Below are positions 11,967 through 32,659 of a stretch of 64,000 nucleotides of DNA, in pieces. The DNA is from Fibrobacter sp. UWEL. Its GTDB lineage: Bacteria; Fibrobacterota; Fibrobacteria; Fibrobacterales; Fibrobacteraceae. Every line of letters starts with the position of its first letter. The first letter of the stretch is position 1. A model generated the notes under the pieces. That model saw only the letters and a list, made by a program, of their open reading frames with translations. It ran no database searches and had not been told where the DNA came from. The stretch spans positions 1 through 64,000 of the forward strand of contig NZ_FRBE01000018.1 in assembly GCF_900142535.1 (NCBI RefSeq), read 5' to 3'. The position numbers and the translations under genes are program-made.

Positions 11967-12073
11967 TTTAGCCCCTTTTTCGCCTGAAAAACAACGCGAC
12001 AAACTGTGTCGCATAGCTAATCTACATTATGCTCCGCAAAAGGGAAATCCCCCTTGGCAAAAAAGGAGTAGTC

Positions 12074-12439
12074 ATGAAGCTAAAAGCCGTGGTAAATATG
12101 ATGCCCATCGAGTTCATGCGTCTTCAGGACGAAAACCCTCGAGAGAAGTACCTGTATAACGAAGATGGGGATTGCCGCACCTACGTGAAGATTGGCGGAA
12201 TCAGCACCGACCGTGTTGCGCCCCAACTTTTGACGAGCCCCCGCCCGGCCACCTACGTGATCGAGCTGAAGGAAGGCCTGGGTTTCGTGCGATATCGAAT
12301 GGATTTGGACGTGCGCTTCGGATGGAGCTTCTTCCATATCCTGGCCATCTCCGAAGACCCCTGCGACTACGACAAAGCCTTCGGCAAGCTACACAATATT
12401 ATGCTCCGCTACATGTATCAACAAGGATTCATATCATGA
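12074..12439 (+). CDS. Unknown 121-residue protein of WYL-linked operon
   Basis: AAAAGGAGTAGTC precedes the ATG. The product (MKLKAVVNMMPIEFMRLQDE...) lacks signal peptide or membrane spans. It looks alpha/beta, with PATYVIELKEGLGFVRYRMD and FGWSFFHILAIS and a C-terminal helix (DYDKAFGKLHNIMLRYMYQQ). Family unknown. The stop overlaps the next start (ATGA), giving translational coupling. Regulation by the divergent WYL protein is likely. Confidence 0.75.
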   Translation: MKLKAVVNMMPIEFMRLQDENPREKYLYNEDGDCRTYVKIGGISTDRVAPQLLTSPRPATYVIELKEGLGFVRYRMDLDVRFGWSFFHILAISEDPCDYDKAFGKLHNIMLRYMYQQGFIS

Positions 12440-13179
12440 GAATGTTTCAGCTTTTGAAGGATAGTGATCCCTCCCGCAGCAACGGGACGGAGATCGTTGT
12501 GTCTATGAATAAGCCCGAAGGTGATTCGCCCTTCCGCGGGATTGAAACGTTGGGCTGCCGCGGGGAAGGTACGTCGGGGAACCGCGGGATTGAAACGTCG
12601 GGCCGATTTCAGGTGACTGTCTTTAGCAGGTTGTTTAAGACGGAGTCCGCTGAAAAATGCCTGGAAGTTCTGGAGCGTGCGTGCTCTGACGGGAATACAG
12701 TATCCCTGGATTATAATGATGTTGCGTCCCTGGCAGGAATGTACGGCCATATGGTCTATGAACGCCTGGTGTTCCGCGACACGTCCAGTGGCCCTCAAGT
12801 TGATTGCTCCGATGCTCAGGTTTGCCGCGGGTCGTCCAGTCACCTTTCGGGGAGTTACGCTCCGGCGGGCCGCGCCGCGGGTGATGAACATCGGGTTAGC
12901 CGCACCTCGGGTGATGGCGCTCTGGTTAGCCGCGCCCGTCAGGATGTGGATGGCTGGTTGCAGCAGTTGCCTCGGGTGGAGTCCTGCATTATCGTGGTGG
13001 AACACGGTGGGGATTTACTGCTCCGCCAGTTCAGTGAAATCATGGACCGCATCAATGAGGTCATCTGTCCAGATGACTTTGACACCGCGGAAAATATCAT
13101 CTGTATGGACTTGAAGGGAGATGTCCCTCCGGGCACCCAGCAAGTCCACCTCTGGTATGTAGAGAAGGAGGATGTCTAG
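12436..13179 (+). CDS. Unknown protein with in-frame tandem repeats
   Basis: 247 residues. Two segments look like expansions inside an otherwise ordinary domain: three 8-residue repeats (FRGIETLG, CRGEGTSG, NRGIETSG, residues 34-57) and two 10-residue repeats (RAAGDEHRVS, RTSGDGALVS, residues 146-165). Between them QVTVFSRLFKTESAEKCLEV and ASLAGMYGHMVYERLVFRD are normal. The C-terminal part (VESCIIVVEHGGDLLLRQFS, MDRINEVICPDD, NIICMDLKGDVPPGTQQVHL) is a clean alpha/beta domain that faintly recalls the FtsZ/tubulin C-terminal domain; I would not name it on this basis. The start is fixed by ATGA overlap with the preceding gene. Confidence 0.72.
   Translation: MRMFQLLKDSDPSRSNGTEIVVSMNKPEGDSPFRGIETLGCRGEGTSGNRGIETSGRFQVTVFSRLFKTESAEKCLEVLERACSDGNTVSLDYNDVASLAGMYGHMVYERLVFRDTSSGPQVDCSDAQVCRGSSSHLSGSYAPAGRAAGDEHRVSRTSGDGALVSRARQDVDGWLQQLPRVESCIIVVEHGGDLLLRQFSEIMDRINEVICPDDFDTAENIICMDLKGDVPPGTQQVHLWYVEKEDV
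12534..12605 (+). repeat. Three in-frame 24-bp tandem repeats
   Basis: Units start at 12534, 12558 and 12582. The first and third begin with CCGCGGGATTGAAACGT and differ from each other at two or three bases; the middle one is diverged. A related ACGTCGGGC recurs just behind the gene at about 13190. Copy number could vary by slippage without breaking the frame. Confidence 0.8.
12871..12930 (+). repeat. Two in-frame 30-bp tandem repeats
   Basis: Two 30-base units, both of the form CGC(G/A)CC..CGGGTGATG...GGTTAGC, encoding related decapeptides. A partial third unit (CGCGCCCG) follows. Confidence 0.7.
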
Positions 13180-13260
13180 CGGGTCGTTGAACGTCGGGCA
13201 GGCTGGGCAATGTCGGGTCGGCGGAATTAGGTCGTTGTAAAATGTCCGTTTTCGCAAAAT

Positions 13261-13596
13261 GCTAGTGCAAATCGGGATTAATCCTCGGATCTGCACTAGC
13301 ATTTTTAGTTTGTCTGAGGTGTTTTGGCGGGTGGTGCGCCTGAACGCTAGTACGAAAAAGCTGAAAATGCCAGATTCGCACTAGCGTGCGCTGCTGTGAG
13401 GTGGCCGCTGGGCGAAAATACTAGTGCAAAAATACGGGAATGTCGATTTTCGTACTAGTCCGTAAAGCCTCGCTCATGATGCACTAGTGCAAAAATGCGG
13501 AAAATGTCGGATTCGTACTAGTATTTGCCACCACAGGGCTTCCGTCAGACGAAAATACTAGTACGAATTCCTGAAAAACGCCGGATTTGCACTAGC
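13261..13596. repeat. Array of five 40-bp palindromic units
   Basis: Units of exactly 40 bp start at 13261, 13346, 13420, 13483 and 13557. Each begins RCTAGTRCRAA and ends GYACTAGY, and four of five share a core close to GAAAATGYCGGATT. The arms are inverted repeats; in the first unit pairing extends outward to 14 bp (AAAATGCTAGTGCA). Spacers are 45, 34, 23 and 34 bases, i.e. they differ by multiples of 11. It lies between the WYL-linked operon and a terminator. It is neither CRISPR (spacers too short and not separated by direct repeats of one orientation) nor any repeat I can name. Confidence 0.85.
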
Positions 13597-13635
13597 TTTC
13601 CGCCGATTTACGCTTTTTTACCCGCGATTGCGCTG

Positions 13636-14059: not shown

Positions 14060-14262
14060 ATAAGACTTTTTTGGTAACGCCAAGAAGGATGCCGCCCACG
14101 AGTCGATGGGGCTGTGGGGCATAAAGGCTGAAGCAGGCGATGCTAGAGTTGACCATGTTTTTTTGGTGTCATGGTCAACCGCAGTTAGGTTTGGACTGTG
14201 TTTGGGCTAGCGTCAGCGGGTACTTCTGTTGAGCCGGGCATCCTTCTTGGTGTTTCTTTTTC
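14060..14262 (+). ncRNA. Rod-like structured RNA, 6S-like candidate
   Basis: Bases 14076-14093 (ending CCAAGAAGGATGCC) pair with 14237-14254 to make an 18-bp closing stem, followed by TTCTTTTTC. Inside, GATGCTAG pairs with CTAGCGTC (14139-14146 / 14207-14214) and GTTGACCATG with CATGGTCAAC (14148-14157 / 14170-14179). About 27 unpaired bases on the 3' side make an asymmetric bulge. Length (about 180 nt), long closing stem, central bubble and apical stem fit the 6S RNA (RNA polymerase-binding) plan, but I see no diagnostic 6S sequence. TATATT at 14050 gives a plausible promoter. Confidence 0.5.
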
Positions 14263-14295
14263 CCGCGAATTCTCGCCAGATTTGGAGGCGTCCCG

Positions 14296-14310
14296 TTGAC
14301 AAGTTGTCCA
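14296..14310. promoter_or_regulatory. Hemicellulase operator, GH141-like gene
   Basis: TTGACA-AGT-TGTCCA, centred within a longer near-perfect palindrome (TCCCG...CGGGA, 14291-14315). The element ends 101 bases before the start codon. Five more enzyme genes carry the same 6-3-6 palindrome at a similar distance. Confidence 0.7.
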
Positions 14311-14411
14311 CGGGATGTTTTTTTGCGCTATTTCATTTGCTCCTGCCGAAACATATCTTTACTCATGTTGGTTTGTTCGGCCAGTGGTGTGGCCGGAAAT
14401 TGTGAGGAAAT

Positions 14412-17036
14412 ATGGTTTTTAAGAGTATGGTCAATAAGGCTGCATTGTGCGCTGCCTTTGGCTTGGCAAGCCTCTCTCAGGCTGCTGTTCAGGCAACCTT
14501 CTATGTAGCTCCCGATGGTAGCGATGCTGCCAAGGGAACCAAGGACGCTCCCTTCAAGACAATTACAGCAGCCCAGAAGGCTGTTCGTGCCATTAACGGC
14601 ACCATGACCGGCGACATCGAGGTGATCCTTCGCGAAGGTACCTACCAGCTGGCAAATACCATCAATTTTGACGAAAAGGACGGCGGTCAGAACGGCCATT
14701 ACGTGCGCTATAAGGCTGCCGATGGCGAAAAGCCCCTGATTACTGGCGGTATGCCCATTACGGGCTGGACCATTCACGACGAAGCTAATAACATCTGGAA
14801 GGCAGAAGGCGTAGAAGGCCGTTTCCGCCAGCTGTATGTGAACAACAAGAAGGCCGTTCGCGCTTGCTACCCCAATATGGCAAGTGAAATTGACCATGAT
14901 TTCAAGCGCCTCACTAAGGTGGACTCCGCGGGCCGTGCCTTTGATGTTTCTACCGACGATGTGAAGATGATTAAGGATGCGGACAATGTGGAAATCCACT
15001 TGATGATCGCCTGGTCCGAAAACATCCTCCGTCTGGAAAAGATCCAGAATAATGGCGGCACTTCCAAGCTGATCCCCAAGGATCCTGAACGTACCAAGCT
15101 GTTCCATCGTGCTTATCCCATGCTGGGTACCGCTTTCATGAGTAACCCGCCCAAGCAGCAGGCTTACTATCTGGAAAACTCCTACGACTTTATTGACGCT
15201 CCGGGTGAATGGTTCCTGGACGAAAAGGAACATGTCCTTTATTATAAGGCCCGCGAAGGCGAAAACATGGGAACCGCCAACGTCGTGGCACCCCGTATCA
15301 ACACTCTGTTCAACGTTCTGGGCAAGGACACCAAGAATAAGGTGGGCTACATGGCTTTCGAAGGCTTGTACTTCGGCCACACCAACTACCTGCGCCCCAG
15401 CGACGAAGGCTTCCTGGATTTGCAGGCCGCCAACTTCAACGTGGATGTGCTTTCTGACCCCGAACGTGGTGGCCTTGGCACCTTGAACAGTAACAAGTAT
15501 TTGCTGTGGCGTCCGGATGCTGCGTTCCGTGTTGAAAATGCCCATCACTTCAAGGTGCAGGGGAACGTTTTCTCCCAGCTGGCTGCAACTGGTCTTGACT
15601 TTGTCTCCGGTACTAACGACGATATGATTCAGGGCAATGCCTTCTTTAATATCGGTGCTGCCGGTATCATGATCGGTAAGTTCGCTCAGGACTCCACTAC
15701 CGAAATTCACGAAGCTTACAACCCCAGCGACAAGGAAGAAATCAGCACTCGCGATACCATCAAGAATAACCTGGTCAACAACGTGACTACAGAACACCAG
15801 GGCGCTGTAGGTATTGGTGCCGGTCTTCCGCGCTATATCGAGATTGTCCATAACGAAGTTTCCTATACCAACTATTCTGGTATTTCCATTGGTTTTGGCT
15901 GGACAAAGAAGGAGACGGCCATGACCAATAACCATGTGAACTGGAATGAAATCCACCATATCGCCCGCTTGCTCTGCGATGCAGGCCCGATTTACACCCT
16001 GTCCAACCAGGGTACCGGTAGTGAAATCCAGTATAACTACATCCACGATAACACCACCTCCAAGTGGGCTGACTACTGGAATGTGCCTATTTATCTGGAT
16101 GAAGGTTCCAGCGGCTTTACCGTCAAGGAAAACGTGTTCAAGAATGCCGCAGGTGGCGTAGGCCAGAACCAGGCTGGTACCAACACGATTAACCAGTCCA
16201 GCGATTACTGGAATCAGAATACTGCAGACAATGCAGGTATCGAAAAGGACTTCAAGAAAATCAAGGAAATTACCGAAATCCCGCTGCCGGACTTCTCCAA
16301 CACGGTTCCTCAGGCTCCCTTTAACGGCGTGGTACACTCCATTCCGGGTACCCTCCAGCTGGAAGACTACGATGAAGGTGGCCAGAGCGTTTCCTTTAGC
16401 GATAAGGACTTCGTCAACGAAGGCAACGTCTATCGTGAAGATGGCGTGGATGTGGTTGGCCTGGGCTGCGCCGATACCTTGAATACCGTAGATTGCCAGG
16501 GTTATGCAATTGGCTATACCAATCCGGGCGAATGGCTGGAATACACCGTAAACGTCATTCTGGAAAGTGAATATGTGTTCCGCGCCAATGTGGCCAGCGG
16601 TCTTGATGTGGCAAGCTTCCGCCTCTATATGGATGGTGAAGCCATTACCGACACCATCGCTATCCCTCAGGGCGAAGACTGGGTGACCTACGGCTATGTG
16701 GAAGGCAAGACTGCCAAGCTGCCTAAGGGCGAACACGTTCTCCGTGTGGCAATCACCGGTACTTACGGCAATCTGGACTGGATTCAGTTCGCCCTTACCG
16801 AAGACGAACTGAATACCGATGGAATCGTCCCGGGTGCTACCCGCTTCCAGCTGGATATGGATGTAGCTAACGTCGGTGCCTACAAGATCTATAACTCTCA
16901 GGGCCGCCTCATGGGTTATGTCAACGCAACATCTTCCCGCGAAGCCCGCGATCTTCTCCGCACGAAGGTCTTGGATTCCGGAATCTACATGGTGAAAACA
17001 CCCTCCGGTTCCTCCTTCCGCGTGAACGTGAAGTAA
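14412..17036 (+). CDS. Secreted beta-helix glycoside hydrolase (GH141-like) with CBM6
   Basis: 874 residues with signal peptide (MVFKSMVNKAALCAAFGLAS, cleavage after ...SQAAVQA). Residues 30-620 form a right-handed parallel beta-helix: TFYVAPDGSDAAKGTKDAPF opening, QAYYLENSYDFIDAPGEWFL, then repeated NNH-type rungs (IEIVHNEVSYTNYSGISIGF, HIARLLCDAGPIYTLSNQG). The AYYLEN..PGEW motif and domain length match GH141, a family with alpha-L-fucosidase and xylanase activities; GH120 is the main alternative. A CBM6-like module (about 640-795: IPGTLQLEDYDEGG, GYTNPGEWLEYTVNV, LDWIQFA) binds polysaccharide. The last 65 residues (YKIYNSQGRLMGYV...GIYMVKT) are the shared surface tail. TGAGGAAAT precedes the ATG. 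Confidence 0.82.
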   Translation: MVFKSMVNKAALCAAFGLASLSQAAVQATFYVAPDGSDAAKGTKDAPFKTITAAQKAVRAINGTMTGDIEVILREGTYQLANTINFDEKDGGQNGHYVRYKAADGEKPLITGGMPITGWTIHDEANNIWKAEGVEGRFRQLYVNNKKAVRACYPNMASEIDHDFKRLTKVDSAGRAFDVSTDDVKMIKDADNVEIHLMIAWSENILRLEKIQNNGGTSKLIPKDPERTKLFHRAYPMLGTAFMSNPPKQQAYYLENSYDFIDAPGEWFLDEKEHVLYYKAREGENMGTANVVAPRINTLFNVLGKDTKNKVGYMAFEGLYFGHTNYLRPSDEGFLDLQAANFNVDVLSDPERGGLGTLNSNKYLLWRPDAAFRVENAHHFKVQGNVFSQLAATGLDFVSGTNDDMIQGNAFFNIGAAGIMIGKFAQDSTTEIHEAYNPSDKEEISTRDTIKNNLVNNVTTEHQGAVGIGAGLPRYIEIVHNEVSYTNYSGISIGFGWTKKETAMTNNHVNWNEIHHIARLLCDAGPIYTLSNQGTGSEIQYNYIHDNTTSKWADYWNVPIYLDEGSSGFTVKENVFKNAAGGVGQNQAGTNTINQSSDYWNQNTADNAGIEKDFKKIKEITEIPLPDFSNTVPQAPFNGVVHSIPGTLQLEDYDEGGQSVSFSDKDFVNEGNVYREDGVDVVGLGCADTLNTVDCQGYAIGYTNPGEWLEYTVNVILESEYVFRANVASGLDVASFRLYMDGEAITDTIAIPQGEDWVTYGYVEGKTAKLPKGEHVLRVAITGTYGNLDWIQFALTEDELNTDGIVPGATRFQLDMDVANVGAYKIYNSQGRLMGYVNATSSREARDLLRTKVLDSGIYMVKTPSGSSFRVNVK

Positions 17037-17061
17037 GATCCCTGCGATTCTGCTTTAGTGT

Positions 17062-17090
17062 TATCCCGAGGTTCTCCCTCGGGATTTTTT
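17062..17090 (+). terminator. Terminator
   Basis: ATCCCGAGG-TTCT-CCCTCGGGAT followed by TTTTT, ending the GH141-like gene. Confidence 0.85.
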
Positions 17091-17172
17091 AATCACTAGA
17101 CCTTGGTTACGTGATGATTATCACGAAGACGCTTTTTTCGGCGTTTTTGGCGCTTTTTAGCGCATATGCCCT

Positions 17173-17187
17173 TTGACAAATTGTCCA
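17173..17187. promoter_or_regulatory. Hemicellulase operator, GH43 gene
   Basis: TTGACA-AAT-TGTCCA ending 82 bases before the GH43 start codon. It differs from the preceding gene's element at one base in the centre. Confidence 0.7.
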
Positions 17188-17269
17188 GAGCAATTCTTTT
17201 ACGGCTATTCACATGGGCGGAAATTGGAGATATTTTTAGAGAGAACTTTTAAAAGGGTTTGGTTTTGTT

Positions 17270-19438
17270 ATGATGAAGAGTTATAAAAAGTGGATTGCAC
17301 CCACTATTTTTGGTGCATTCGGTTTGGGAATTGTCCCTTCCGTTATGGCGGATAATCCCATTATCCAGACATATTATTCTCCGGACCCGGCTCCGGTTGT
17401 ATTCGGCGATACGCTTTGCTCCTATTCCGGTAACGACGAAGGTGGTTCCTTCTTTACCATGCATGGTTGGCGCGTTTCCTGCACCACCGATATGGTGAAC
17501 TGGACCGATATGGGCGAGCTGATCCTGGAAGCAGGCGACTTTAACGGTAGCGCCAAGAAGAATGGCGACTGGGCTGCTCAGGTAATCCGTCGTAAGGATG
17601 CCAGCGGCAAGTACAAGTATTACTACTATGTGACTGTTGAATCTACCAAGGGTGGCCGCGCCATTAACGTGGCTGTTGCCGATACCAAGGAAGGTCCTTT
17701 TAAGGATGCTCTGAACGGCAAGCACTTGGCTGGTCCTAACTGGGACTACATCGACCCTACCGTATGGATTGATGATGATGGCAAGGCTTACCTGTACTGG
17801 GGTAACCCCAAACTCTATTTCTGCCCTCTCAAGGACAACATGATCGAATGCGACGGTGGTGTCCAGCTTACGGACATGGCTAGCTTTAACGGCAAGTATA
17901 CGGAAGGCCCGTGGATCCACAAGCGCGGCAAGAAGTACTACATGATCTATGCTGCTGGCGGCGTTCCCGAATCCATTGACTATTCCTGGAGTGATAAGCC
18001 TACAAGCGGCTGGCAGTATAAGGGAACCATTATGCCTAGCAGCGAACCGGGCTCTGCATTTACGGTACATTCCGGTATTGTGGATTTCCAGGGCCGTAGC
18101 TTCTTCTTCTACCATAACCAGCGCCGCGTTCCCAGTGCTGGTGGCTATTCCCGTACTTCTGCAGTGGAAGAATTTACCTGGGGTGCCGATGGTACCATTC
18201 CTACCATCCGCATGACGGATGATGGTGTAACTAAGCCTATCAAGAATTTGGATCCTTACGAAAAGGTTCAGGCCGAAACCAAGGCTTGGGTGGAAGGCAT
18301 TACTGTGGATAAGGCTGGTGGTTACACCATTATCAAGAATGTTGAAAGCGAAGGCAAGACTGTTTATCTCACCAACATGAATGCGGGTTCCTGGACCAAG
18401 GTCCGTTCCGTGGACATGAGTGATGGTGCCGATAATATCGTGGTTTGCACTAAGGGTGGCTCCGGCGTGATTGAACTTCATTCCGGTTCTGCTACTGGTC
18501 CGCTGATGTCTACCATTAAGGTTCCCGCAAGCGATACCTGGCAGGAAAATTCCTTCGAAGTGACTGGTGCCGATGGCGTTGCAGACTTGTATTTCGTATT
18601 TAAGTCTGGCAACTTCAAGTTTGACTACTGGTACTTCGAAACTTCCGCAACTGCAGTTCCTCAGGAACCGTTCGGTGGCAAGGCTTGGGCAATTCCGGGT
18701 AAGATCGAAGCCGAAGACTTCGACAAGCCGGGTAAGGGCCGCGGTAACAGCTCCTTCCAGGATAGCGATACTGAAAATCATTCCTGCACCGACGAAGGCA
18801 AGGAAGCTGAATGCTCCGAGTACCGTAGCGAAGACGCTCCCGCAGTGGATATCTACAAGAAGAGCGCAACACGCACTGTCGTAGGATACATTACCAATGG
18901 CGAATGGCTGGAATACACTGTGGACGTTGCCAAGGATGGTGACTACACTATGTATGCCGCTGTGGCTTCTGATGGTGGCTCTAGCTTCAAGCTGTCTGTG
19001 GATGGTGAAGACGTTACCGAGGATATTGCGGTTCCCGCTGCAAGAAAGAGTGAAGACGATGCTCAGAACTTTGATTCCTACAGCAAGGTTTCTGCAGATG
19101 TCAAGCTCACCAAGGGTCAGCACATTCTGCGCTTTACCGCAACAGCAGACTGGTTCGATATTGATTACTTCAACTTCGTTGCGAAGGGCGAAGAAGATCC
19201 GTGCCCCATCGGTGCAGAAAGTTGCGGCGATAACAAGGATGCTTTGGTCAAGAACTTCCAGGTGGTGAATGCTGGCGCCTCTTACAATGTATTCGATATG
19301 CAGGGTAAGAAGCTTGGCATGATTCATTCCAACGGTGCAAACTTCTCCGAAGCAATGATCAGCGCTGGCTTCTCCAAGGGTGTTTACATGCTCCGCAATG
19401 TAACCTCCAAGAAGTCCCAGATGGTGAAGGTGAAGTAG
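17270..19438 (+). CDS. Secreted GH43 arabinofuranosidase/xylosidase with two CBM6-like modules
   Basis: 722 residues; signal peptide ends ...GIVPSVMA. The five-bladed GH43 domain (29-325) shows the three catalytic acids: base Asp39 in SPDPAP, Asp162 in YIDPTVWI, general acid Glu212 in YTEGPW. Likely substrates are arabinose or xylose side chains on xylan; the exact specificity cannot be read. A first CBM6-like domain follows (about 330-460, EKVQAETKAWVEGI to FDYWYFETS), then a second (about 475-650, IPGKIEAEDFDKPG, GYITNGEWLEYTVDV, FDIDYFNFV) with an extra Cys-containing loop (SCTDEGKEAECSEY). The tail NVFDMQGKKLGMIH...GVYMLRN is the shared one. A double ATG opens the gene; AAAAGGG lies further upstream. 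Confidence 0.9.
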   Translation: MMKSYKKWIAPTIFGAFGLGIVPSVMADNPIIQTYYSPDPAPVVFGDTLCSYSGNDEGGSFFTMHGWRVSCTTDMVNWTDMGELILEAGDFNGSAKKNGDWAAQVIRRKDASGKYKYYYYVTVESTKGGRAINVAVADTKEGPFKDALNGKHLAGPNWDYIDPTVWIDDDGKAYLYWGNPKLYFCPLKDNMIECDGGVQLTDMASFNGKYTEGPWIHKRGKKYYMIYAAGGVPESIDYSWSDKPTSGWQYKGTIMPSSEPGSAFTVHSGIVDFQGRSFFFYHNQRRVPSAGGYSRTSAVEEFTWGADGTIPTIRMTDDGVTKPIKNLDPYEKVQAETKAWVEGITVDKAGGYTIIKNVESEGKTVYLTNMNAGSWTKVRSVDMSDGADNIVVCTKGGSGVIELHSGSATGPLMSTIKVPASDTWQENSFEVTGADGVADLYFVFKSGNFKFDYWYFETSATAVPQEPFGGKAWAIPGKIEAEDFDKPGKGRGNSSFQDSDTENHSCTDEGKEAECSEYRSEDAPAVDIYKKSATRTVVGYITNGEWLEYTVDVAKDGDYTMYAAVASDGGSSFKLSVDGEDVTEDIAVPAARKSEDDAQNFDSYSKVSADVKLTKGQHILRFTATADWFDIDYFNFVAKGEEDPCPIGAESCGDNKDALVKNFQVVNAGASYNVFDMQGKKLGMIHSNGANFSEAMISAGFSKGVYMLRNVTSKKSQMVKVK

Positions 19439-19467
19439 TAAATACTTTGTTCTAAATACGGAACGTT

Positions 19468-19503
19468 GAGAAAGGCTCTCGCTAAGGCGAGAGCCTTTCT
19501 TGT
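19468..19503 (+). terminator. Terminator
   Basis: AAAGGCTCTCGC-TAAG-GCGAGAGCCTTTCTT behind the GH43 gene. Confidence 0.85.
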
Positions 19504-19533
19504 TCTGATGGGAAATCGTCGCCATTCATTGTT

Positions 19534-19567
19534 TGTCCACGATGGACATATTTGGATAAACTGTCCA
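19534..19567. promoter_or_regulatory. Hemicellulase operators, GH2 gene (two elements)
   Basis: TGTCCA-CGA-TGGACA (19534-19548, half-sites in the opposite order) is followed five bases later by TGGATA-AAC-TGTCCA (19553-19567). The second ends 77 bases before the start codon, as in the other enzyme genes. Only this gene has two elements. Confidence 0.65.
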
Positions 19568-19593
19568 TAGGAGTGTTGAAAAAAGTGTTTTAA

Positions 19594-23544
<3,951 letters not shown>

Positions 23545-23587
23545 CGCAAGCATCAAGCGCTAGTAAAGATTCCACACCCAAATACAA

Positions 23588-23618
23588 GACATCCCGGAAG
23601 CAATTCCGAGATGTTTTT
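23588..23618 (+). terminator. Terminator
   Basis: GACATCCCGGAA-GCAA-TTCCGAGATGT followed by a T-run, behind the GH2 gene. Confidence 0.8.
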
Positions 23619-23628
23619 TTATCGCTCC

Positions 23629-23660
23629 CGTCATCCTGAGCGGAGTCGAAGGATCCAGTG
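23629..23660. repeat. Dispersed GTCATCCTGAGC repeat
   Basis: Compact form: GTCATCCTGAGCGGAGTCGA followed by AGGATCCAG. Seven related copies are scattered between 23 and 57 kb, all intergenic. Confidence 0.75.
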
Positions 23661-23673
23661 ACGTTTTGGTCTT

Positions 23674-23688
23674 TTGACAAAATGTCAA
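23674..23688. promoter_or_regulatory. Hemicellulase operator, GH95 gene
   Basis: TTGACA-AAA-TGTCAA, a fully symmetric version ending 85 bases before the start codon. Confidence 0.68.
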
Positions 23689-23773
23689 TGGGACTTTTTT
23701 TAGGGATGTTGTAAATCAACTCCTACGGGGGTATTTTTGACGATATAAAAGTTGGGTAAAAAAAGAGGTTATT

Positions 23774-26700
23774 ATGATTCTGAGAGATATGATGTTTGGA
23801 TTGGGCATGAGTTTTGCAACTCTGTCCGTTCCTGCATTTGTAGCACCTGCAATGGCTGCTCCCGAAACATCCCACGTTCTGTGGTACAATAGCGATGCTG
23901 GCACCACTTTTACGGATGCACTTCCCATCGGTAACGGTTACATGGGTGGCATGATTTATGGCGGTGCCAGTAAGGACGTGATTGGTCTGAACGAAGGTAC
24001 CGTCTGGAACAGTGGTCCGGGTAGCAACAACAAGAGCGGTTCTGCCGCTAAATTGGCTCAGATTCGTAATGCACTTTTCTCTGGTGACTACAAGACTGCA
24101 GAAGATATGACCGGTAGTTTCGCCACCTACGACGTTGCCGCATTCCAGCCCGTAGGTGACCTGGTCATCAATACAGGTCACACTGCTTCTGACTATCGTC
24201 GCGAATTGGATCTTGAAACAGCTACTGCAAAGACTACTTATACTGCAGGCGGCGTCAAGTATACCCGCGAATATTTTGCAAACTATCCTGACAATGTGAT
24301 GGTGATTCGCCTGACTGCAAGCGAAAACGGTAAGGTCAACTTTAGCGCTGGCCTCACTTCTCCTCATACCAACAAGAGCGTGACTAATTCCGGTAGCAAC
24401 ACTCTCGTCATGAATGGTCAGGTGAATTCCATCAAGTTCCAGACTCGTTTTGTGGTGCAGGCTGACGGCGGTACCGTCAAGGCTGGTAATGGAACGGTGG
24501 ATGTTTCCGGAGCAAATTCCGCAACCATCATCTTGAATATCGGCACCAACTTCAACTCCTTCGATAACGTCTCTGGCGACCCGGCCGCCCGTGCAGAGGC
24601 TGCCATCGCGGCTGCCAGCAAGAAGACTTATGAACAGCTGAAGGAAGCCCACCTGAAGGACTATCAGGAACTGTACAATCGTGTGCGCCTGAACCTGGGT
24701 ACCGCCGCTTCCAACGCTGGCGATATTACCACCAGCCGCGTCAAGGCATTTAACACCACCGACGACCCCTCCTTCGTGGAACTGTACTATCAGTTTGGTC
24801 GTTACCTCATGATTTCCTGCTCCCGTAAGGGTGGCCAGCCCGCAAACCTTCAGGGTATCTGGAATAAGGACACTTCTCCTATGTGGGGTTCCAAGTACAC
24901 CACCAACATCAACCTGGAAATGAACTACTGGATGGTGGAATCTGCCAACCTCCAGGAATGCGGTGTGCCTCTGTTCGACAAGATCAAGGCTCTGGTCTCT
25001 CAGGGTTCCAAGAGTGCCAAGGAAATCTGGGGAACGGACCGCGGCTGGGTTGTACATCATAATACTGACTTGTGGAACCGTACGGGACCTGTGGACGGCT
25101 CCTGGGGTGTGTGGCCTTCTGGTGCAGGTTGGCTCAGCACTCATCTGTGGGAACATTACCTCTACACCGGTGATAAGCAGTTCCTGAAGGACGCTTACGA
25201 AACCATGAAGGGTGCCGCTGAATTCTACCTCACCACTATGGTGGAAGAACCGAAGAGTGGCCACAAGTATTTGGTGACCGCTCCCAGCGATTCTCCGGAA
25301 AATACCCACGGCGGCTACAACGTCTGCTTTGGCCCCACCATGGATATCCAGATTGCCCGCGATGCTTTCAACAACGCTATCGAAGCCTCCAAGATTCTAG
25401 GCGTTGATGAAGACCTGCGTGCAGAATTCGAAACTGCTGTCAAGCGCTTGCCGCCCAATCAGATTGGTAAGTATGGCCAGCTTATGGAATGGTTCGAAGA
25501 CTGGGACGATCCCAAGAGCGAACACCGCCACGTTTCTCACCTTTACGGCCTTTTCCCCAGTGCCCAGATTTCTGTAGACGGCACCAAGGACGAAGCTGAA
25601 GCAGCAAAGACTACCTTGACCCAGCGTGGCGACAATGCTACCGGCTGGTCTCTGGCCTGGAAGATCAACCTGTGGGCTCGTCTTCAGGATGGCGATCACG
25701 CTTACAAGCTGGTGCGCAACCTCCTTACTCCGGACCGTACCTACAACAACCTCTTCGACGCCCATCCGCCTTTCCAGATTGACGGTAACTTTGGCGCAGT
25801 CTCTGGCATTAACGAAATGTTCATCCAGAGCCAGGGCGGAAAGATCCGCGTGCTTCCTGCGCTTCCCTCCAAGTGGTCTAGCGGTAGCGTTTCTGGCTTG
25901 AAGGCTCGCGGCGGCTTGACTGTGGATTCCCTGGCTTGGAACAACGGCAAGCTGACCTATCTGGGCTTGAGTGCCACTAATAAGGATAACCTGACCATTG
26001 AATATAACGGCAACATCGCCAGCACCACTACCATGGCGGGCGGCAAGTACGAATTCGATGGCAACCTGAAGGTGACCAACGAACCCTTCGAAGCGGTGGC
26101 TTTGCCTGCCAAAATTGAAGCCGAAGATTACGTGGCCATGGATGGCGTGGTCATCGAGCCTGATGAATCTGGTGAGCCTAACATCGGCTGGATTGAAGAC
26201 GGCGATTGGTCCGAATACTTCGTGAAGGCTCCTAAGGCTGGCCATTACACCCTGAAGGTTCGTGTTGCTTCCGGTTCCGAGGAAAAGAGCACCATTACCA
26301 TTTCCAACGAAGCGGGGAAGACCTTGGGAACCATTACCGTGGATCCCGAAAAGACCTCCGGATGGAATGACTGGTATGAAGAAGAAACCTCCATCGAACT
26401 TCCCGCTGGTGAACAGACCTTGCGCTTTACCTATAACGGTGAAGGCTTCCTCATGAATGTGGATAACTTCAGTATCGAATCTGGTACGGACGCAATGCCT
26501 GATATTGCCGCACAGCGCATCAACTCTCTGGAAGTGGCCCGCGTGCCCATGTCCCGAGCAAGCGTTGCCCTGATGGTGAAGGCTCCCGCAGGTGAAAGTT
26601 ACACCGTGCGTCTGCTGGATGTAAATGGCCGGCAGGTGGCTGCTTCCCGCGGTATCGGTTCCGCAGGCGCAAACCTGGTGGAATTTGGCGCTACTAGCCG

Positions 26701-26776
26701 ACTTCCGCAAGGCAATTACATCGCTGTGGTTCGTAGCGGTTCCCGCCAGAAAACGCTCCGTCTTTCCGCCTTCTAA
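23774..26776 (+). CDS. Secreted GH95 alpha-L-fucosidase/galactosidase with CBM
   Basis: 1000 residues with a signal peptide ending ...PAMAAPE. The GH95 domain (30-770) opens with [20 protein letters not shown], has the (alpha/alpha)6 barrel, and shows the family's unusual catalytic set: Asn378 and Asn380 in [10 protein letters not shown], general acid Glu509 in DSPENTHGG and Asp670 in [12 protein letters not shown]95 enzymes remove alpha-1,2-linked L-fucose or L-galactose, sugars found on xyloglucan and grass xylans. A CBM6/CBM35-like module (about 775-910, [31 protein letters not shown]) follows, then the surface tail in a more divergent form ([18 protein letters not shown]...NYIAVVRSG). Confidence 0.9.
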
Positions 26777-26928
26777 TAATCATGCCGATGTAAATCGGCA
26801 TCCGCTTGATAAGCTTGGGTTGTTTGTCAGGAAAAACAACATCCCATACAACAAAAAGGTCCCCGCAGCTCGCTGCGGGGATCTTCTTGTTGGTTTTTCT
26901 GAGAGAATCTATGATCTAGAGATCGCCA
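26777..26928. terminator. Two hairpins between convergent enzyme genes
   Basis: ATGCCGAT-GTAA-ATCGGCAT (26782-26801) lies just behind the GH95 gene. GTCCCCGCAGC-TC-GCTGCGGGGATC (26859-26882) with T-rich sequence follows and probably terminates from both sides. Confidence 0.75.
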
Positions 26929-28431
26929 TTACTGCATTTCGAAGGAGTAGAGGAACGGCCAGCCGATAGAAGCGTCACCGTAGTCATGGCCGCCACCCTG
27001 CTTGGTGCAGAGAACAACCTTGGAGCCTTCCTTACAGTTGGAGTATTCCTGGCAACCATCCTTGTTGGTGGTGGGAGAACCGGTACAACCGTTCTTGTCT
27101 GCCCAGAACTTGAAGTTCTTTTCGGCGCCAAGGAAGTTCAGACCGTCGTTGAAGCCACTGTCGCCACCCTGGTAACGGCAAACGTTATCGTTGGTGCCGC
27201 GGAACATGATGATAGGAACTGCACGTACCGGAGCGCAGCTTGCGCTGTTCACGGTGTTCAAGTCCATAGCTGCGGGAGCCACTGCAGTGAAGACGTCAGA
27301 CATGTTACATGCAACGTGGTTGCTCATGCCGCCGCCCATGGAGAAGCCTGCTGCGTAGACGCGCTTGGTGTCGATGCAGGTCAATTCTTCAACCTTCTTG
27401 ATCATTTCACGAGAGAACTTGATGTCATCATCGTAAGAGCAGCAAGGACCAACGTTCCAGCCCGGGCCCATGGTCTTGGTGGTGCCCTGCGGGTACAGAG
27501 AAATGCCGCCCAGTGCATCGGAGTAGGTCTTGTAGCCGGAAGAGTTCATGTGGCTAGCAGACTGACCGCCAATGGGGTGGTAGTCCACAACCAGAGGAAC
27601 CGGCTTGTCGCCCTTGTATGCTGCGGGGACGCGCATAATGAAGGTGCGTTCCTTGCCATCGACGGTCACGCTCATGTTGTGTTCGCCGGATTTATAAGTC
27701 TTGCCTACGCAGCTGACGGTTTCAGGAACCTTGCTGGAGCTAGAGGCAACCTGTGCTGCGCTGGAGCTAGATTCAACCTTCTTGCTAGAGCTAGAAGCGG
27801 GAGTGGGGATAGTGCTGCTGGATGCCGGGTTGAACGGGACATTTGCAACTTCCATAACGACCTTAACGCCGGTTTCGTGTTCTGCAGTTGCCTGGTAAGT
27901 CTTATTGGTGTAGCCAGTCTTAGCAAACTGCAGCATGGGGAGAGCTTCACCTTCCTTCATCAGGGCGCTCATGACCACGCCCTTGTCGGAAAGCACGTAA
28001 TTTTCAATTCTGCTGTTGGAAGTCACGCGGAGAACCATCATCTTCTGAGAGTACTTGCTGAGATCCAACTGAATGTTAGTGGAAATCTGGTCCTGGAAAA
28101 CGACCTTGCCAAGTGCGTCCATCAGGGAAACCTTCAAATCCTTGCCATTTGCGTTGGCAATGTTCAGGAAATTACCTTGCTTCTGGACAGAAACTGCGCC
28201 GGAAGCTGCGACACCGAAGTTTCCGATGGCGTCGGTTTCGTTAGAAAGGCTGAATGCGCCGTCTGCGCCGCTAGTTGTTTCGAATCCGCCGTAGTTGAAG
28301 GTATTGATATTGACATCAGCGATGCCCTTGTTGTCAGTACCTACGACGTTGCCGCTAACACTCCAGCCGAAGGCTGCAGAGGAAAGCATGGCGACTGCGC
28401 TAACTGTTCCCAAAACATGAGGGAATTTCAT
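26929..28431 (-). CDS. Secreted CE1-like esterase (feruloyl or acetylxylan esterase)
   Basis: 500 residues; AAGGAGTGTATTCT precedes the ATG and the signal peptide ends ...SSAAFG. The esterase domain (about 255-500) has the alpha/beta-hydrolase triad: Ser in GFSMGGG, Asp in FRGTNDNVCRY and His in GGGHDYG. It resembles CE1/PHB-depolymerase-like esterases that free ferulate or acetate from xylan. Several Cys pairs (GPCCSYDDD, LTCID, CTGSP) suit an extracellular protein. The N-terminal half holds a carboxypeptidase-regulatory-like beta domain and a segment LKVSLMDALGKVVFQDQIST...LRVTSNSR that resembles the tail of the other enzymes, here placed before a Ser-rich linker (PASSSSKKVESSSSAAQVAS) instead of at the end. 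Confidence 0.85.
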   Translation of the reverse strand: MKFPHVLGTVSAVAMLSSAAFGWSVSGNVVGTDNKGIADVNINTFNYGGFETTSGADGAFSLSNETDAIGNFGVAASGAVSVQKQGNFLNIANANGKDLKVSLMDALGKVVFQDQISTNIQLDLSKYSQKMMVLRVTSNSRIENYVLSDKGVVMSALMKEGEALPMLQFAKTGYTNKTYQATAEHETGVKVVMEVANVPFNPASSSTIPTPASSSSKKVESSSSAAQVASSSSKVPETVSCVGKTYKSGEHNMSVTVDGKERTFIMRVPAAYKGDKPVPLVVDYHPIGGQSASHMNSSGYKTYSDALGGISLYPQGTTKTMGPGWNVGPCCSYDDDIKFSREMIKKVEELTCIDTKRVYAAGFSMGGGMSNHVACNMSDVFTAVAPAAMDLNTVNSASCAPVRAVPIIMFRGTNDNVCRYQGGDSGFNDGLNFLGAEKNFKFWADKNGCTGSPTTNKDGCQEYSNCKEGSKVVLCTKQGGGHDYGDASIGWPFLYSFEMQ

Positions 28432-28666
28432 AGAATACACTCCTTTTTTTGTTGCAATATTTCCAAACATTGAAACATCCTACTCAAAAAATTAATTCCA
28501 AGCTGGAATAATTAGACTAGTGTGAAAAACACTTTCCGTTTGCAAAATACTAACGAGTTTTTGTTTACATACGCGGGATGTTGTAGAAAGTATCCATGGG
28601 CGATCTTGATAAAAGTGGCGAAATTTTGCTAAAAACGCCATTTTATTGCGAGTGTTGTTATGCTTA
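28432..28666. other. Divergent control region of esterase and xylanase
   Basis: No gene seen. ATTCCA-AGC-TGGAAT (28495-28509) has the same 6-3-6 geometry as the hemicellulase operators but other half-sites, and lies 64 bases upstream of the esterase start. The rest is AT-rich. Confidence 0.5.
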
Positions 28667-28681
28667 TGGACATTTTATCCA
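28667..28681. promoter_or_regulatory. Hemicellulase operator, first GH10 gene
   Basis: TGGACA-TTT-TATCCA ending 99 bases before the start. The surrounding 20 bases (TTATGGACATTTTATCCATG) are identical before the second GH10 gene. Confidence 0.72.
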
Positions 28682-28780
28682 TGGAAACTGCTTTTCGGTG
28701 CGAAATATTCCAACCCGTACGAAATAGATTACGTGATGGTTGGAAAAATCAATCCAATAAACAAAAATAAGGATGTGGAT

Positions 28781-30700
28781 ATGAAAAAGATTAAAAAGTC
28801 TGTAGCTGCAGCTCTCGCTCTTGCCGCTGCATGCGCAGTACCGTCTTTCGCTGGCCCGGGTCTCGCCGATGGCGCAGCAAAGTTCGTCGGTAACATTACT
28901 CAGTCTAATACTGCTCCCGGTCCCAACGACACTTACACCAAGTTGTGGAACCAGGCCACTGCAGAAAACGGCTGTAAGTGGGGCTCCATCGAAGGCAGCC
29001 GCGGTAACTATAACTGGGCTGGTTGTGACGCTGCCTATAACTGGGCTAAGAACAATGGTGGCCACTTCAAGTTCCATGCTCTCCTTTGGGGTTCCCAGTA
29101 TCCCAGCTGGCTCGAAAGCTTGAGTGTTGATGATACTAAGAAAGCTGTTGTAGCATGGTTTGATGCTGTTAAGAAGCATTATCCTGATCTGGAAATGATC
29201 GACGTGGCAAACGAAGCTATCCGTACCGGTAACGGCCAGTATCATTCTAACTATACCAAGACCAAGCTTATTCAGGCTTTGGGTGGCGATAATAATGACT
29301 ACGCCTTCCTTACTACCGCTTTCAAGATGGCCCGTGAACGTTGGCCCAAGGCAATCCTGATTTATAACGACTATAATACCATTCAGTGGAATGTGGATCA
29401 GGGTATCGACCTGATCAATACCATCAGAAAGAATGGTGCTCCTATTGATGGTTACGGCCTTCAGGCTCACGACTTGATGAGCCAGGGCGGTGGCGCTAAT
29501 GGTACTGGTGGCGGTGGTGCTTGCCTTGCTTACAGCACCTTTAAGTCTACCATGGAAAAGATCCATAGCAAGACCAACAATTTCCCGATTTTCATCTCTG
29601 AATACGACATTCCCACTACGGATGATGGCATTCAGGAACAGTGCATTAAGGAACAGTTCACCTACTGGTTTGAAGACCCGTATGTAGCCGGCATCACTTT
29701 CTGGGGCTATATCTATGGTCAGACCTGGCTCAACTGTAATAACACTGCAAATGGTTGCTCCGGCCTTATCAAGAACGGTCAGGACCGTAAGGCTATGACC
29801 TGGCTGAGAAACTATCTCGCATCCAACAAGGGTGTAAACACCACCGGCCTCATTGGTGGCGAACCTGTTGAACCGGAACCGCAGACTCCGTATGGTGGCA
29901 AGGTTGCCTCTATTCCGGGTAAGATTGAAGCTGAAAACTTCGACGTTCCGGGCGTAGGCGTTAACGAAGATGGTTCCTCCAATGCTTCTTACAGCGTTGC
30001 AAACGGCGGTAACGGCGACTCTAACTACCGCGATGGCGAATCTCCCAACCTCTACAAGGGTGGCACTGGTGTCGTTATTGGTTACAACAATACCGACAAC
30101 TGGTACGAATACACTGTAGAAGTTGCAAAGGCTGGTGATTACACCATTATCGCTTCTGTAGCATCTCAGGATGGTGGCGAAATGAGCATCTCCATGGACG
30201 GCAAGTCTGTTGGTTCCATTACCGTTCCCAGCACCGGTGACTACAAGACTTTCCAGGATGCTTCTACCAAGGTTACCCTGGCTGCAGGTAAGCACATCAT
30301 GCGTGTTACCGTGACTAAGGAATACTTTGATATCGACTACCTGAACATCGTTGAAGGTTCCGTCGAACCGACCCCGGCATCTTCTGCAAGCGTTGAACCT
30401 GTTCCGGCATCTTCTGCAAGTGTTGAACCGACCCCGGCATCCAGCGCTAGCACGACTCCTGTTGCCGAATCCTCTTCTGGCACTGATGCTATCGGTCAGA
30501 GCCTCCAGCTGGAATTCGATACCCGTCAGGACTTCGATATCTTCGATATGCAGGGCCAGTTCATGGGTCGCCTCAGCGGCTATAGCTTTGACGAAGCCAT
30601 CTTCACTGTCCAGAATGGTAGCGTCAAGTTCGCTAAGGGTGTCTACTACATCCGTAACCGCGGCACCGGCACCATGCTGAACTTCCGCATCGTCAAGTAA
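28781..30700 (+). CDS. Secreted GH10 endo-xylanase with CBM6, first of tandem pair
   Basis: 639 residues with signal peptide (MKKIKKSVAAALALAAACAV, cleavage near PSFA). The GH10 TIM barrel (25-365) carries acid/base Glu145 in DVANEAI and nucleophile Glu274 in FISEYDI, with WGSQYPSWL and YNDYN family motifs. It cleaves beta-1,4-xylan internally. A CBM6 module (about 370-525, SIPGKIEAENFDVPG, GYNNTDNWYEYTVEV, FDIDYLNIV) is followed by a linker of repeated EPTPASSASV units (528-565) and the shared tail (FDIFDMQGQFMGRLSGYSFD...GVYYIRN). F. succinogenes is known for xylanases of exactly this build in a clustered locus. The start is placed at the signal peptide; a longer frame exists upstream. Confidence 0.94.
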   Translation: MKKIKKSVAAALALAAACAVPSFAGPGLADGAAKFVGNITQSNTAPGPNDTYTKLWNQATAENGCKWGSIEGSRGNYNWAGCDAAYNWAKNNGGHFKFHALLWGSQYPSWLESLSVDDTKKAVVAWFDAVKKHYPDLEMIDVANEAIRTGNGQYHSNYTKTKLIQALGGDNNDYAFLTTAFKMARERWPKAILIYNDYNTIQWNVDQGIDLINTIRKNGAPIDGYGLQAHDLMSQGGGANGTGGGGACLAYSTFKSTMEKIHSKTNNFPIFISEYDIPTTDDGIQEQCIKEQFTYWFEDPYVAGITFWGYIYGQTWLNCNNTANGCSGLIKNGQDRKAMTWLRNYLASNKGVNTTGLIGGEPVEPEPQTPYGGKVASIPGKIEAENFDVPGVGVNEDGSSNASYSVANGGNGDSNYRDGESPNLYKGGTGVVIGYNNTDNWYEYTVEVAKAGDYTIIASVASQDGGEMSISMDGKSVGSITVPSTGDYKTFQDASTKVTLAAGKHIMRVTVTKEYFDIDYLNIVEGSVEPTPASSASVEPVPASSASVEPTPASSASTTPVAESSSGTDAIGQSLQLEFDTRQDFDIFDMQGQFMGRLSGYSFDEAIFTVQNGSVKFAKGVYYIRNRGTGTMLNFRIVK

Positions 30701-30734
30701 TCTTGCCGTAGCGCAGCTCTCTCTTAATGGAAAT

Positions 30735-30763
30735 GCCCCCGGATCTATTCCGGGGGTTTTCTT
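30735..30763 (+). terminator. Terminator
   Basis: CCCCCGG-ATCTATT-CCGGGGG followed by TTTTC. It touches the operator of the next gene, so the two xylanase genes are separate transcription units. Confidence 0.85.
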
Positions 30764-30764
30764 A

Positions 30765-30779
30765 TGGACATTTTATCCA
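30765..30779. promoter_or_regulatory. Hemicellulase operator, second GH10 gene
   Basis: TGGACA-TTT-TATCCA ending 89 bases before the start, identical to the element of the first GH10 gene. Confidence 0.72.
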
Positions 30780-30868
30780 TGGAAAGTGAATTTACCCCTG
30801 TTATTATTATTCCAATAGGAAATAGTTTAATGAATGGTGAATATGGGAACAACAAAAGGATTAGGGTT

Positions 30869-32659
30869 ATGAAAAAGTCTCTTACAGCACTCGCTTTCGC
30901 AACTGCATGCGCAGTTCCGTCTTTCGCTGGCCCCGGTTTGGCTGATGGTGCAGCCAAGTTCGTGGGTAACATTACCACAAATGGCCAGGTTCGTTCCGAT
31001 TTCGGTACCTACTGGAACCAGATTACCGCTGAAAATGAATGTAAATGGGCATCTATCGAAGGTTCTCGCGGTAATTATAACTTTACCGGCTGTAAAAACG
31101 CCTATAACTGGGCCAAGAACAATGGTGGACACTTCAAGTTCCACGCTCTGGTCTGGGGTTCCCAGTATCCTAGCTGGCTCGGCAACCTGAGCGAAGCCGA
31201 TACCAAGACCGCTATTACCAACTGGTTTGACGCCGTCCAGAAGCAGTTCCCCGATCTGGAAATGATCGACGTGGTGAACGAAGCTATCCGTACCGGCAAC
31301 AACTCTTATCATTCCGGCTATACCAATACCAAGATTATCCAAGCTCTGGGTGGCGACAACAATGGTGACTACACCTTCGTGACTACCGCCTTTAAGATGG
31401 CTCGTGAACGTTGGCCGGAAGCAATCCTGATTTATAACGACTATAATACTGTCCAGTGGCAGAAGAACGAAGGTATCCAGCTGATCCAGACCATCAAGAA
31501 GAATGGTGCTCCGGTGGATGGCTACGGCCTTCAGGCTCACGACATGATGACCCAGGGTGGTGGTGCAGGTGGTACTGGTGGTAGCGGCGGCTGCTTGAAC
31601 ATTAACACCCTCAAGGGCGTTATTGAAGAAATTTGGACAAAGACCGAAACCCCCATGTTCATTTCTGAATATGACATCGGTACTGACGACGATAATACCC
31701 AGAAGCAGTGCTACTCCGAACAGATTTCCTACTTCATGGAAAATGAACATGTGGCTGGCATTACCCTGTGGGGCTACATCTACGGTTCTACCTGGACTAC
31801 CAACGGTAACTCTGGTATCATCAAGAATGGCAATGACCGTCCCGCAATGACCTGGCTCAAGGAATATCTGTCCAAGAACAAGGGCGTCAATACTACTGGC
31901 CTTGCTGGTGGCGAAGTCCGCGATCCTGAACCTCAGACTCCGTATGGTGGCACTGCAGCTTCCATTCCGGGTAAGATCGAAGCAGAAAACTATGACGTTC
32001 CGGGTTACGGCTCCGGCAATAACTCCTACAGTGTTGCTAGCAGCGGCAATGGTAACTCTGACTACCGTAAGGATACCAGCCCGAACCTCTACAAGGGTGG
32101 TACTGGCGTCGTGATTGGCTACAACAACACTGACAACTGGTACGAATACACCGTCGATGTCAAGGAAACTGGCTCCTATACCATGTATGCAGCTGTTGCT
32201 TCTGCAGGTGGTGGCGCATTTACCCTCTCTATCGATGGTAAGGCTATTACCGAAAGTATCGCAGTTCCCGCAGCAAAGTCCGGTACCGACACTTATGACG
32301 AATACGAAAAGGTTTCCGCTGACGTGAACCTGACCGCTGGTCAGCACATCCTGCGCCTCACTGTGGATAAGCAGTACTTTGATATTGACTACATAACCTT
32401 CGTTGCCAAGGGCGAAAAGGACCCCGAACCTATCGATGGTGATGACGCTATCGGTCAGACGATCCAGCTCGGTGCAGAAGTGAAGGCCGACTACGACGTG
32501 TTCGATATGCAGGGCCAGTTCATGGGCCGCCTCAGCGCCTATAACTTCGGCGAAGCCATCAGCACCGTCCAGAATGGTAACATCAAGTTCGCTAAGGGCG
32601 TCTACTTCGTCCGCAACCGTACCAACGGAAAGATGCAGAACTTCCGCATCGTCAAGTAA
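30869..32659 (+). CDS. Secreted GH10 endo-xylanase with CBM6, second of tandem pair
   Basis: 596 residues, clearly a duplicate of the upstream xylanase: the same signal peptide end (CAVPSFAGPGLADGAAKFVG), GH10 barrel with Glu138 in DVVNEAI and Glu267 in FISEYDI, CBM6 (IPGKIEAENYDVPG, GYNNTDNWYEYTVDV, FDIDYITFV) and tail (YDVFDMQGQFMGRLSAYNFG...GVYFVRN). It lacks the long Pro-Ala-Ser linker, and its loop near residue 235 is GGGAGGTGGSGG. The second half of its CBM6 (AAVASAGGGAFTLSIDGKAI, with AVPAAKSG) is closer to that of the GH43 enzyme than to its own twin, suggesting exchange between modules. Its product spectrum may differ slightly. Confidence 0.94.
   Translation: MKKSLTALAFATACAVPSFAGPGLADGAAKFVGNITTNGQVRSDFGTYWNQITAENECKWASIEGSRGNYNFTGCKNAYNWAKNNGGHFKFHALVWGSQYPSWLGNLSEADTKTAITNWFDAVQKQFPDLEMIDVVNEAIRTGNNSYHSGYTNTKIIQALGGDNNGDYTFVTTAFKMARERWPEAILIYNDYNTVQWQKNEGIQLIQTIKKNGAPVDGYGLQAHDMMTQGGGAGGTGGSGGCLNINTLKGVIEEIWTKTETPMFISEYDIGTDDDNTQKQCYSEQISYFMENEHVAGITLWGYIYGSTWTTNGNSGIIKNGNDRPAMTWLKEYLSKNKGVNTTGLAGGEVRDPEPQTPYGGTAASIPGKIEAENYDVPGYGSGNNSYSVASSGNGNSDYRKDTSPNLYKGGTGVVIGYNNTDNWYEYTVDVKETGSYTMYAAVASAGGGAFTLSIDGKAITESIAVPAAKSGTDTYDEYEKVSADVNLTAGQHILRLTVDKQYFDIDYITFVAKGEKDPEPIDGDDAIGQTIQLGAEVKADYDVFDMQGQFMGRLSAYNFGEAISTVQNGNIKFAKGVYFVRNRTNGKMQNFRIVK

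Follow-up and report, generated by a model that had tools for sequence, protein, structure and literature searches.

Among described systems of hemicellulase control, the closest counterpart to the one considered here is XydS/XydR of Clostridium cellulolyticum. There, essentially all hemicellulases that contain a CBM6, encoded by one cluster plus a distant gene, are under the transcriptional control of XydR, an AraC-type response regulator whose partner is a membrane histidine kinase. XydR binds at distances of 237-599 bp upstream, no consensus has been defined for it, and it is not autoregulated (PMC3572039). Other polysaccharide-degradation regulons are governed by dedicated HTCS and ECF-sigma/anti-sigma systems, in a review of hemicellulase control that mentions neither Fibrobacter nor XRE proteins (PMC10766802). 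The genome paper of Fibrobacter succinogenes S85 described the control of cellulase genes as an unanswered question, with few regulators near those genes (PMC3079729). RNA-seq of the same strain identified co-expression clusters (15-17) that are enriched for CBM6, GH10, GH43, GH141, GH95, GH30, GH27 and CE6 and that rise at slow growth, many cellulases being constitutive (PMC6204037). In the literature searched, no regulator of Fibrobacter hemicellulases was found, nor any function, DNA site or target for a member of the TIGR02147/DUF4423 family.

This report gives an assessment of a 64-kb stretch of DNA (the window; positions 1-64000 of contig 18 in a genome of 3.53 Mb and 62 contigs), whose closest named relatives, by genome contig comparison, are Fibrobacter MAGs from horse faeces. 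Members of Fibrobacter are gut bacteria that digest fibre. A sequence-only reading of the window had claimed that one 15-bp operator precedes six hemicellulase genes and is most simply explained by one trans-acting regulator. Following the site across the genome, genus and class, we consider it probable that the 15-mer is bound by a dimeric activator of a Fibrobacter hemicellulase regulon, the activator being most likely a TIGR02147/DUF4423 protein with positive autoregulation. The promoter geometry, the case for activation and the regulator candidate are new.

Sites and targets in the window, genome and genus

The motif TKGAYA-N3-TRTCMA occurs strictly at the six claimed positions (Table 1) and nowhere else in the window, as against a mean of 0.09 and a maximum of 2 in 100 dinucleotide shuffles; relaxation by one mismatch adds a single match, at 15991, within a coding region. 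All six downstream products contain CBM6 and resemble the CBM6 hemicellulases that have been listed for F. succinogenes S85 (PMC3079729). Measured to the signal-peptide ATGs, which are the gene starts in Table 1, the gaps are 101, 82, 77, 85, 99 and 89 bases, which agrees with the range of 77-101 given before, but the gap is a by-product, and what is rigid is a spacing of 43 bp to a TAnnTTT element. The 15-mer is absent, as had been observed, before the GH9 gene (42349) and before the minus-strand esterase gene, the site closest to the esterase start being 196 bp off and assigned to a GH10 gene. Terminator-like hairpins, several of them weak, do lie 3' of genes at 17063, 19484, 23595, 26856, 30735 and 32684, in line with the separate terminators proposed, in a scan that found 28 such hairpins compared with 18.9 in shuffles. 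The inverted-order copy beside the GH2 operator was likewise found (Table 1), with a similar everted copy upstream of one relative (L028); in two MAGs, relatives of the GH2 gene have paired sites roughly 200 bp apart (L030:16038 and 16249; L041:16055 and 16247), reminiscent of the additional everted copy here.

Table 1. Operators, promoter elements and genes in the window, and the candidate regulator gene on contig 7
Feature	Position	Strand	Remark
Operator of GH141-like gene, TTGACAAGTTGTCCA (palindromic, 15 bp)	14296-14310	+	Flanks widen symmetry to 14292-14314
TATCTTT, TAnnTTT core promoter element of GH141-like gene	14354-14360	+	Exactly 43 bp past operator
GH141-like beta-helix enzyme with CBM6	14412-17036	+	
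Operator of GH43 gene, TTGACAAATTGTCCA	17173-17187	+	
TATTTTT promoter element of GH43 gene	17231-17237	+	Offset 43
GH43 enzyme with two CBM6	17270-19438	+	
Everted copy beside GH2 operator, TGTCCA-CGA-TGGACA	19534-19548	+	
Operator of GH2 gene, TGGATAAACTGTCCA	19553-19567	+	
TATCTTT promoter element of GH2 gene	19611-19617	+	Offset 43
GH2 (beta-galactosidase-like) enzyme with CBM6	19645-23544	+	
Operator of GH95 gene, TTGACAAAATGTCAA	23674-23688	+	
TATTTTT promoter element of GH95 gene	23732-23738	+	Offset 43
GH95 (alpha-fucosidase-type) enzyme with CBM6	23774-26776	+	
Operator of first GH10 gene, TGGACATTTTATCCA	28667-28681	+	
TAGATTA promoter element of first GH10 gene	28725-28731	+	Offset 43, one mismatch
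First GH10 xylanase with CBM6	28781-30700	+	
Operator of second GH10 gene, TGGACATTTTATCCA	30765-30779	+	
TAGTTTA promoter element of second GH10 gene	30823-30829	+	Offset 43, one mismatch
Second GH10 xylanase with CBM6	30869-32659	+	
TIGR02147/DUF4423 protein, 287 aa	Contig 7, 62106-62966	-	Adjoins second hemicellulase cluster

A scan of the whole genome, which had been suggested as a check, located the strict 15-mer in 21 places, as opposed to one for the reversed control. Strict sites are not equally frequent before unrelated genes: 16 of the 21 stand 50-131 bp before genes for secreted hemicellulases, carbohydrate-esterase-like proteins or one regulator, and the other five, which lie within ORFs (on contigs 4, 15, 38 and 40, and at 106178 on contig 11), were treated as chance matches. 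A second hemicellulase cluster, on contig 7, has strict sites upstream of GH43, SASA/CE6, GH30 and GH43 genes as well as the regulator gene; contig 10 has one upstream of a SASA-CBM6 gene, and contigs 2, 9, 11 and 23 have them upstream of esterase-like genes. A site on contig 11 (24513) that looked like an orphan between convergent genes is not one, an esterase-like lipoprotein gene beginning 131 bp downstream. The joint control claimed for xylan backbone and side-chain enzymes would follow from the sites before their genes; the set is, however, wider than had been claimed, also taking in GH27, GH30, GH5, CE6/SASA and alpha/beta-hydrolase esterases. About 17 of the 26 CBM6 genes tested have an upstream composite of 15-mer and promoter element (up to two mismatches), mostly 54-124 bp from the start codon, and about a third have none.

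Across the genus, the 15-mer is present in 3-26 places per genome versus 0-5 for the control, each of the 61 genomes exceeding its control, in a few cases by a narrow margin (5 versus 3 in G051, 8 versus 5 in G015). The composite 15-mer+N43+TAnnTTT occurs 21 times in this genome (0-1 mismatch; control, 0) and 4-23 times per genome in almost all genus genomes. Since the definition of the 15-mer derives from the finding itself, conservation inside it is partly imposed; no such constraint applies to the element at offset 43, to the symmetry of the flanks or to the sites of the regulator itself. The same dyad-symmetric site stands, above chance, before several unlinked units whose products have a common function, as is seen in transcription-factor regulons, and these data support the earlier operator interpretation, with the 15-mer as a real and conserved regulon signal.

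Several other features of the window were noted. A gene for a WYL-domain protein (10959-12014) adjoins the hemicellulase cluster and is divergent from that for a 335-aa protein (12172-13179) with no Pfam or NCBIfam match; neither is preceded by the operator. The region just upstream of the GH141-like operator (14070-14262) may encode a strongly structured RNA (-88 kcal/mol, z -5.9) that an 18-nt inverted repeat closes and a T-rich tail follows; this putative RNA matched no Rfam family and, among 40 other genus genomes, just one 27-bp fragment. Short direct and inverted repeats with the core CTAGTGCAAA / TTCGTACTAG cluster in a long intergenic stretch at 13254-13600. Adjoining genes at 3662-7010, with DUF1016_N, Fic plus winged HTH, and PDDEXK nuclease domains, are possibly a mobile or defence island.

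Promoter geometry

In 62 non-redundant sites from the genus, oriented by their genes, the strongest signal outside the 15-mer is a TAnnTTT that starts exactly 43 bp past its end (complete in 50, TA in 60 and TA..TT in 59). The positions from +25 to +28 after the 15-mer are also rich in T, and the symmetry of the palindrome continues into its flanks (pyrimidine at -2, purine at +2), giving a 19-bp form, Y-N-TKGAYA-N3-TRTCMA-N-R. TAnnTTT is, moreover, the top strand-biased pattern before 269 other Fibrobacter genes that have no site (104 forward, 58 reverse), where TAnnTTTG occurs 30 times forward versus seven in reverse and TATAAT is not enriched (five forward, 11 reverse). Because it leads the strand-biased patterns before unrelated genes, TAnnTTT(G) is probably a general core promoter of Fibrobacter; TAnnTTTG resembles the -7 box of the Bacteroidetes. 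Reading TTGACA as a sigma-70 -35 element was rejected: a correctly spaced TATAAT is absent, TGGACA or TGGATA takes the place of TTGACA at many sites, and the core element lies 43 bp further downstream. The arrangement also differs from that of an ECF-sigma regulon, the common element being an upstream dyad and the core the general TAnnTTTG.

If TAnnTTT begins at -11 or -12, the centre of the palindrome falls near -62, and a centre near -61.5 is the classic position for a class I activator. The sites thus combine a fixed distance to the core promoter with a class I-type position relative to the predicted transcription start, and the near-invariance of the 43 bp suggests that the bound protein probably contacts RNA polymerase.

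The candidate regulator and competing readings

The gene that follows site C7:63056 by 89-90 bp encodes a 287-aa TIGR02147/DUF4423 protein (Table 1), and no other regulator gene adjoins a strict site in this genome. The protein scores 195 bits for TIGR02147 (cut-off, 50) and has an above-cut-off match to PF14394 (DUF4423) at 62166-62648 of contig 7, one of 22 such matches in the genome. Orthologues with at least 80% identity are encoded by 60 of the 61 genus genomes, the next paralogues being at 48% or less, and the HTH stretch MGDKLGLDSSYLYRVLQK is invariant across the listed genus regulator set. In a structure model with a mean pLDDT of 47, the usable part (residues 8-102; pLDDT about 67-82) is a helix-turn-helix domain, which in the PDB is matched best by HigA, GraA and P22 c2 (Z up to 8.2, with an rmsd of 3.1 over 81 residues), other XRE proteins matching as well; at the level of fold, and within a model of low overall confidence, the N-terminal domain has the five-helix arrangement of the XRE HTH superfamily. 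A sequence search against the PDB gave no match. A hybrid histidine kinase (L019:8244-10763) was rejected as the owner of site C7:63056, which lies 90 bp before the divergent TIGR02147 gene; neither protein is of the HTCS type, the kinase having CHASE, HisKA, HATPase and receiver domains without a DNA-binding domain, and the candidate having no kinase domain.

The regulator's own upstream region contains the 15-mer (0-1 mismatch), 55-102 bp from the start, in all 59 readable loci (30 of 30 in a first set, 29 of 29 in a second), including those of homologues of 53-79% identity from other genera. Of the 20 paralogues sampled from this genome, none has a 15-mer within one mismatch upstream, each showing at least two mismatches. 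Regulator, sites and CBM6 genes also occur together. In 120 genomes of the class, the excess of composite sites over control averages 11.2 (minimum, 1) with the regulator and 0.6 without it; outside the genus but within the order, carriers have 51 matches versus 3 in the control, and non-carriers 16 versus 15. Two genomes of the genus, G084 (99% complete) and G041, lack both the regulator and any composite site and have just two and one CBM6 matches, compared with 30-37 in G003, G004 and G029, and CBM6 counts are 14-37 with the regulator and 0-3 in the tested near-complete genomes without it. Three genomes, G080, G089 and G109, have 5-9 excess sites and no regulator; being 65-78% complete, they are possibly missing the relevant sequence. 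This pattern supports a regulon whose regulator, sites and CBM6 genes have been gained and lost together, though it is confounded by shared ancestry and whole-regulon loss and by itself cannot separate binding from co-inheritance.

With a specific candidate and sites conserved across the genus, the single trans-acting regulator has gained support as the simplest reading, and the TIGR02147/DUF4423 protein is likely that regulator. The alternative that survives best, although it is unlikely, is that the 15-mer is a true regulon operator for a different protein, the TIGR02147 gene being merely one target, e.g. a downstream regulator in a cascade. The link between protein and site comes from position and phylogeny, and the genome encodes about 21 further TIGR02147 family members and other regulators, such as the WYL-domain protein of the window; a different factor could govern both the enzymes and the TIGR02147 gene. 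Yet a site at the regulator's own promoter in every readable locus, distant homologues included, is typical of autoregulation, and a strict site adjoins the gene of no other regulator here. In addition, in several genomes, the closest paralogue type (L187, L190-L193, L195, L197, L205 and L209) has related but distinct palindromes, TTGCAATTTTTGCAA, TTGACATTTTTTCAA and TTGTAATTTTTTCAA, located about 82-84 bp before the start and followed after 42-43 bp by TATTTTA or TATCTTA. It is as though this type recognized a sister site of the same geometry, which would be expected if each member reads its own site.

In the preferred reading, the 287-aa TIGR02147/DUF4423 protein would bind the 15-mer (19 bp with flanks) as a dimer through its XRE-like helix-turn-helix domain and switch on the hemicellulase genes by contacting RNA polymerase, in class I-like fashion, from about 62 bp upstream of the predicted transcription start. 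Its gene and that of an adjacent lipoprotein would form a two-gene unit which, carrying its own site, would be positively autoregulated. We infer activation over repression from the spacing. That the same protein is instead a repressor, released when hemicellulose is available, seems improbable: many XRE proteins (HigA, P22 c2) do act as repressors, commonly of their own genes too, but repressor sites usually overlap the core promoter and vary in position, whereas here the rigid 43 bp puts the centre near -62, off the core, in nearly every target. Far less credible is the notion that the common sequence is an accident of the duplication of CBM6 enzymes along with their upstream regions. Around the operator, the promoters of the two GH10 genes are almost the same, so these two sites are not independent; the flanks of the 62 genus sites, however, cannot be aligned apart from the 15-mer and TAnnTTT, and the targets include unrelated folds (GH10, GH43, GH95, GH2, esterases) and the regulator gene. 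Finally, it is most improbable that the palindrome works as RNA, forming a leader hairpin that serves as terminator or attenuator. Despite the terminator-like inverted repeat at 14292-14314 and the T-run after it, a palindrome 43 bp upstream of the core element should be absent from the transcript; the other window sites have no GC stem with a T tail, and the conserved centre is AT-rich.

The lipoprotein partner, the wider family and known systems

A homologous lipoprotein gene lies directly 3' of the regulator gene in all 60 loci. Its product evolves much faster (mostly 33-45% identity, versus at least 80% for the regulator) and contains carboxypeptidase-regulatory-like repeats, with a weak, below-cut-off match to CBM4/9 in one orthologue; it is possibly carbohydrate-binding. 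A lipoprotein-like gene is also directly 3' of, and often overlaps, 19 of the 20 other TIGR02147/DUF4423 genes in this genome (L219-L238; 14 recognized by script pattern and five by eye from the Cys lipobox), which suggests that regulators paired with lipoproteins form a large family. It may tentatively be proposed that in each of the Fibrobacter pairs (approximately 20 here) the regulator recognizes a 15-bp palindrome specific to it, at about -62, and activates a gene set of its own, the lipoprotein supplying or tuning an outside signal. The same composite signal was convincing before only two of 20 paralogues, and the family-wide version is kept as a hypothesis. Another TIGR02147 gene (L176) has TTGAAAAAATTTCAA, N43 and TACTTTT about 60 bp upstream (contig 6, 15410-15474).

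As to the inducing signal, Fibrobacter cuts xylan but is unable to use the sugars, xylose among them (PMC3079729), so that the usual sugar-sensing catabolic regulator is not expected and the signal may reflect the rate of growth, or a cue from a surface polysaccharide, rather than a pentose. The family make-up of S85 clusters 15-17 is close to that of the site-bearing set described here. The DNA site is now defined, and with it come a genus-wide promoter model, a list of targets and one candidate protein, along with a first proposed function for the uncharacterized TIGR02147/DUF4423 family, which is strongly expanded here. Were the family-wide proposal true, TIGR02147-lipoprotein pairs would serve for sensing and switching, and that of the hemicellulase regulon would be the first of them to be mapped.

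Set against known systems, the Fibrobacter regulon is like XydS/XydR in that one regulator would act, at the level of transcription, on CBM6-containing hemicellulases in a cluster and at a distance, with the regulator gene adjoining a cluster (PMC3572039). It differs in that a separate palindromic site, at a fixed distance from the promoter, precedes most of the genes and in that the candidate is an XRE-like DUF4423 protein with a site of its own. With the HTCS and ECF-sigma/anti-sigma systems (PMC10766802), it shares dedicated control of a polysaccharide-degradation regulon and possibly a surface signal; unlike them, it implicates no membrane sensor kinase or sigma factor. The candidate has the predicted HTH fold of XRE regulators such as HigA, P22 c2 and PlcR/PrgX-like proteins and would share their short palindromic operator and autoregulation, but is set apart by its long C-terminal domain, probable activator geometry and constant lipoprotein neighbour. 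It belongs to TIGR02147 (Fsuc_second) / DUF4423 (PF14394), a family of which one member may now be assigned a DNA site together with a regulon and a partner in its operon.
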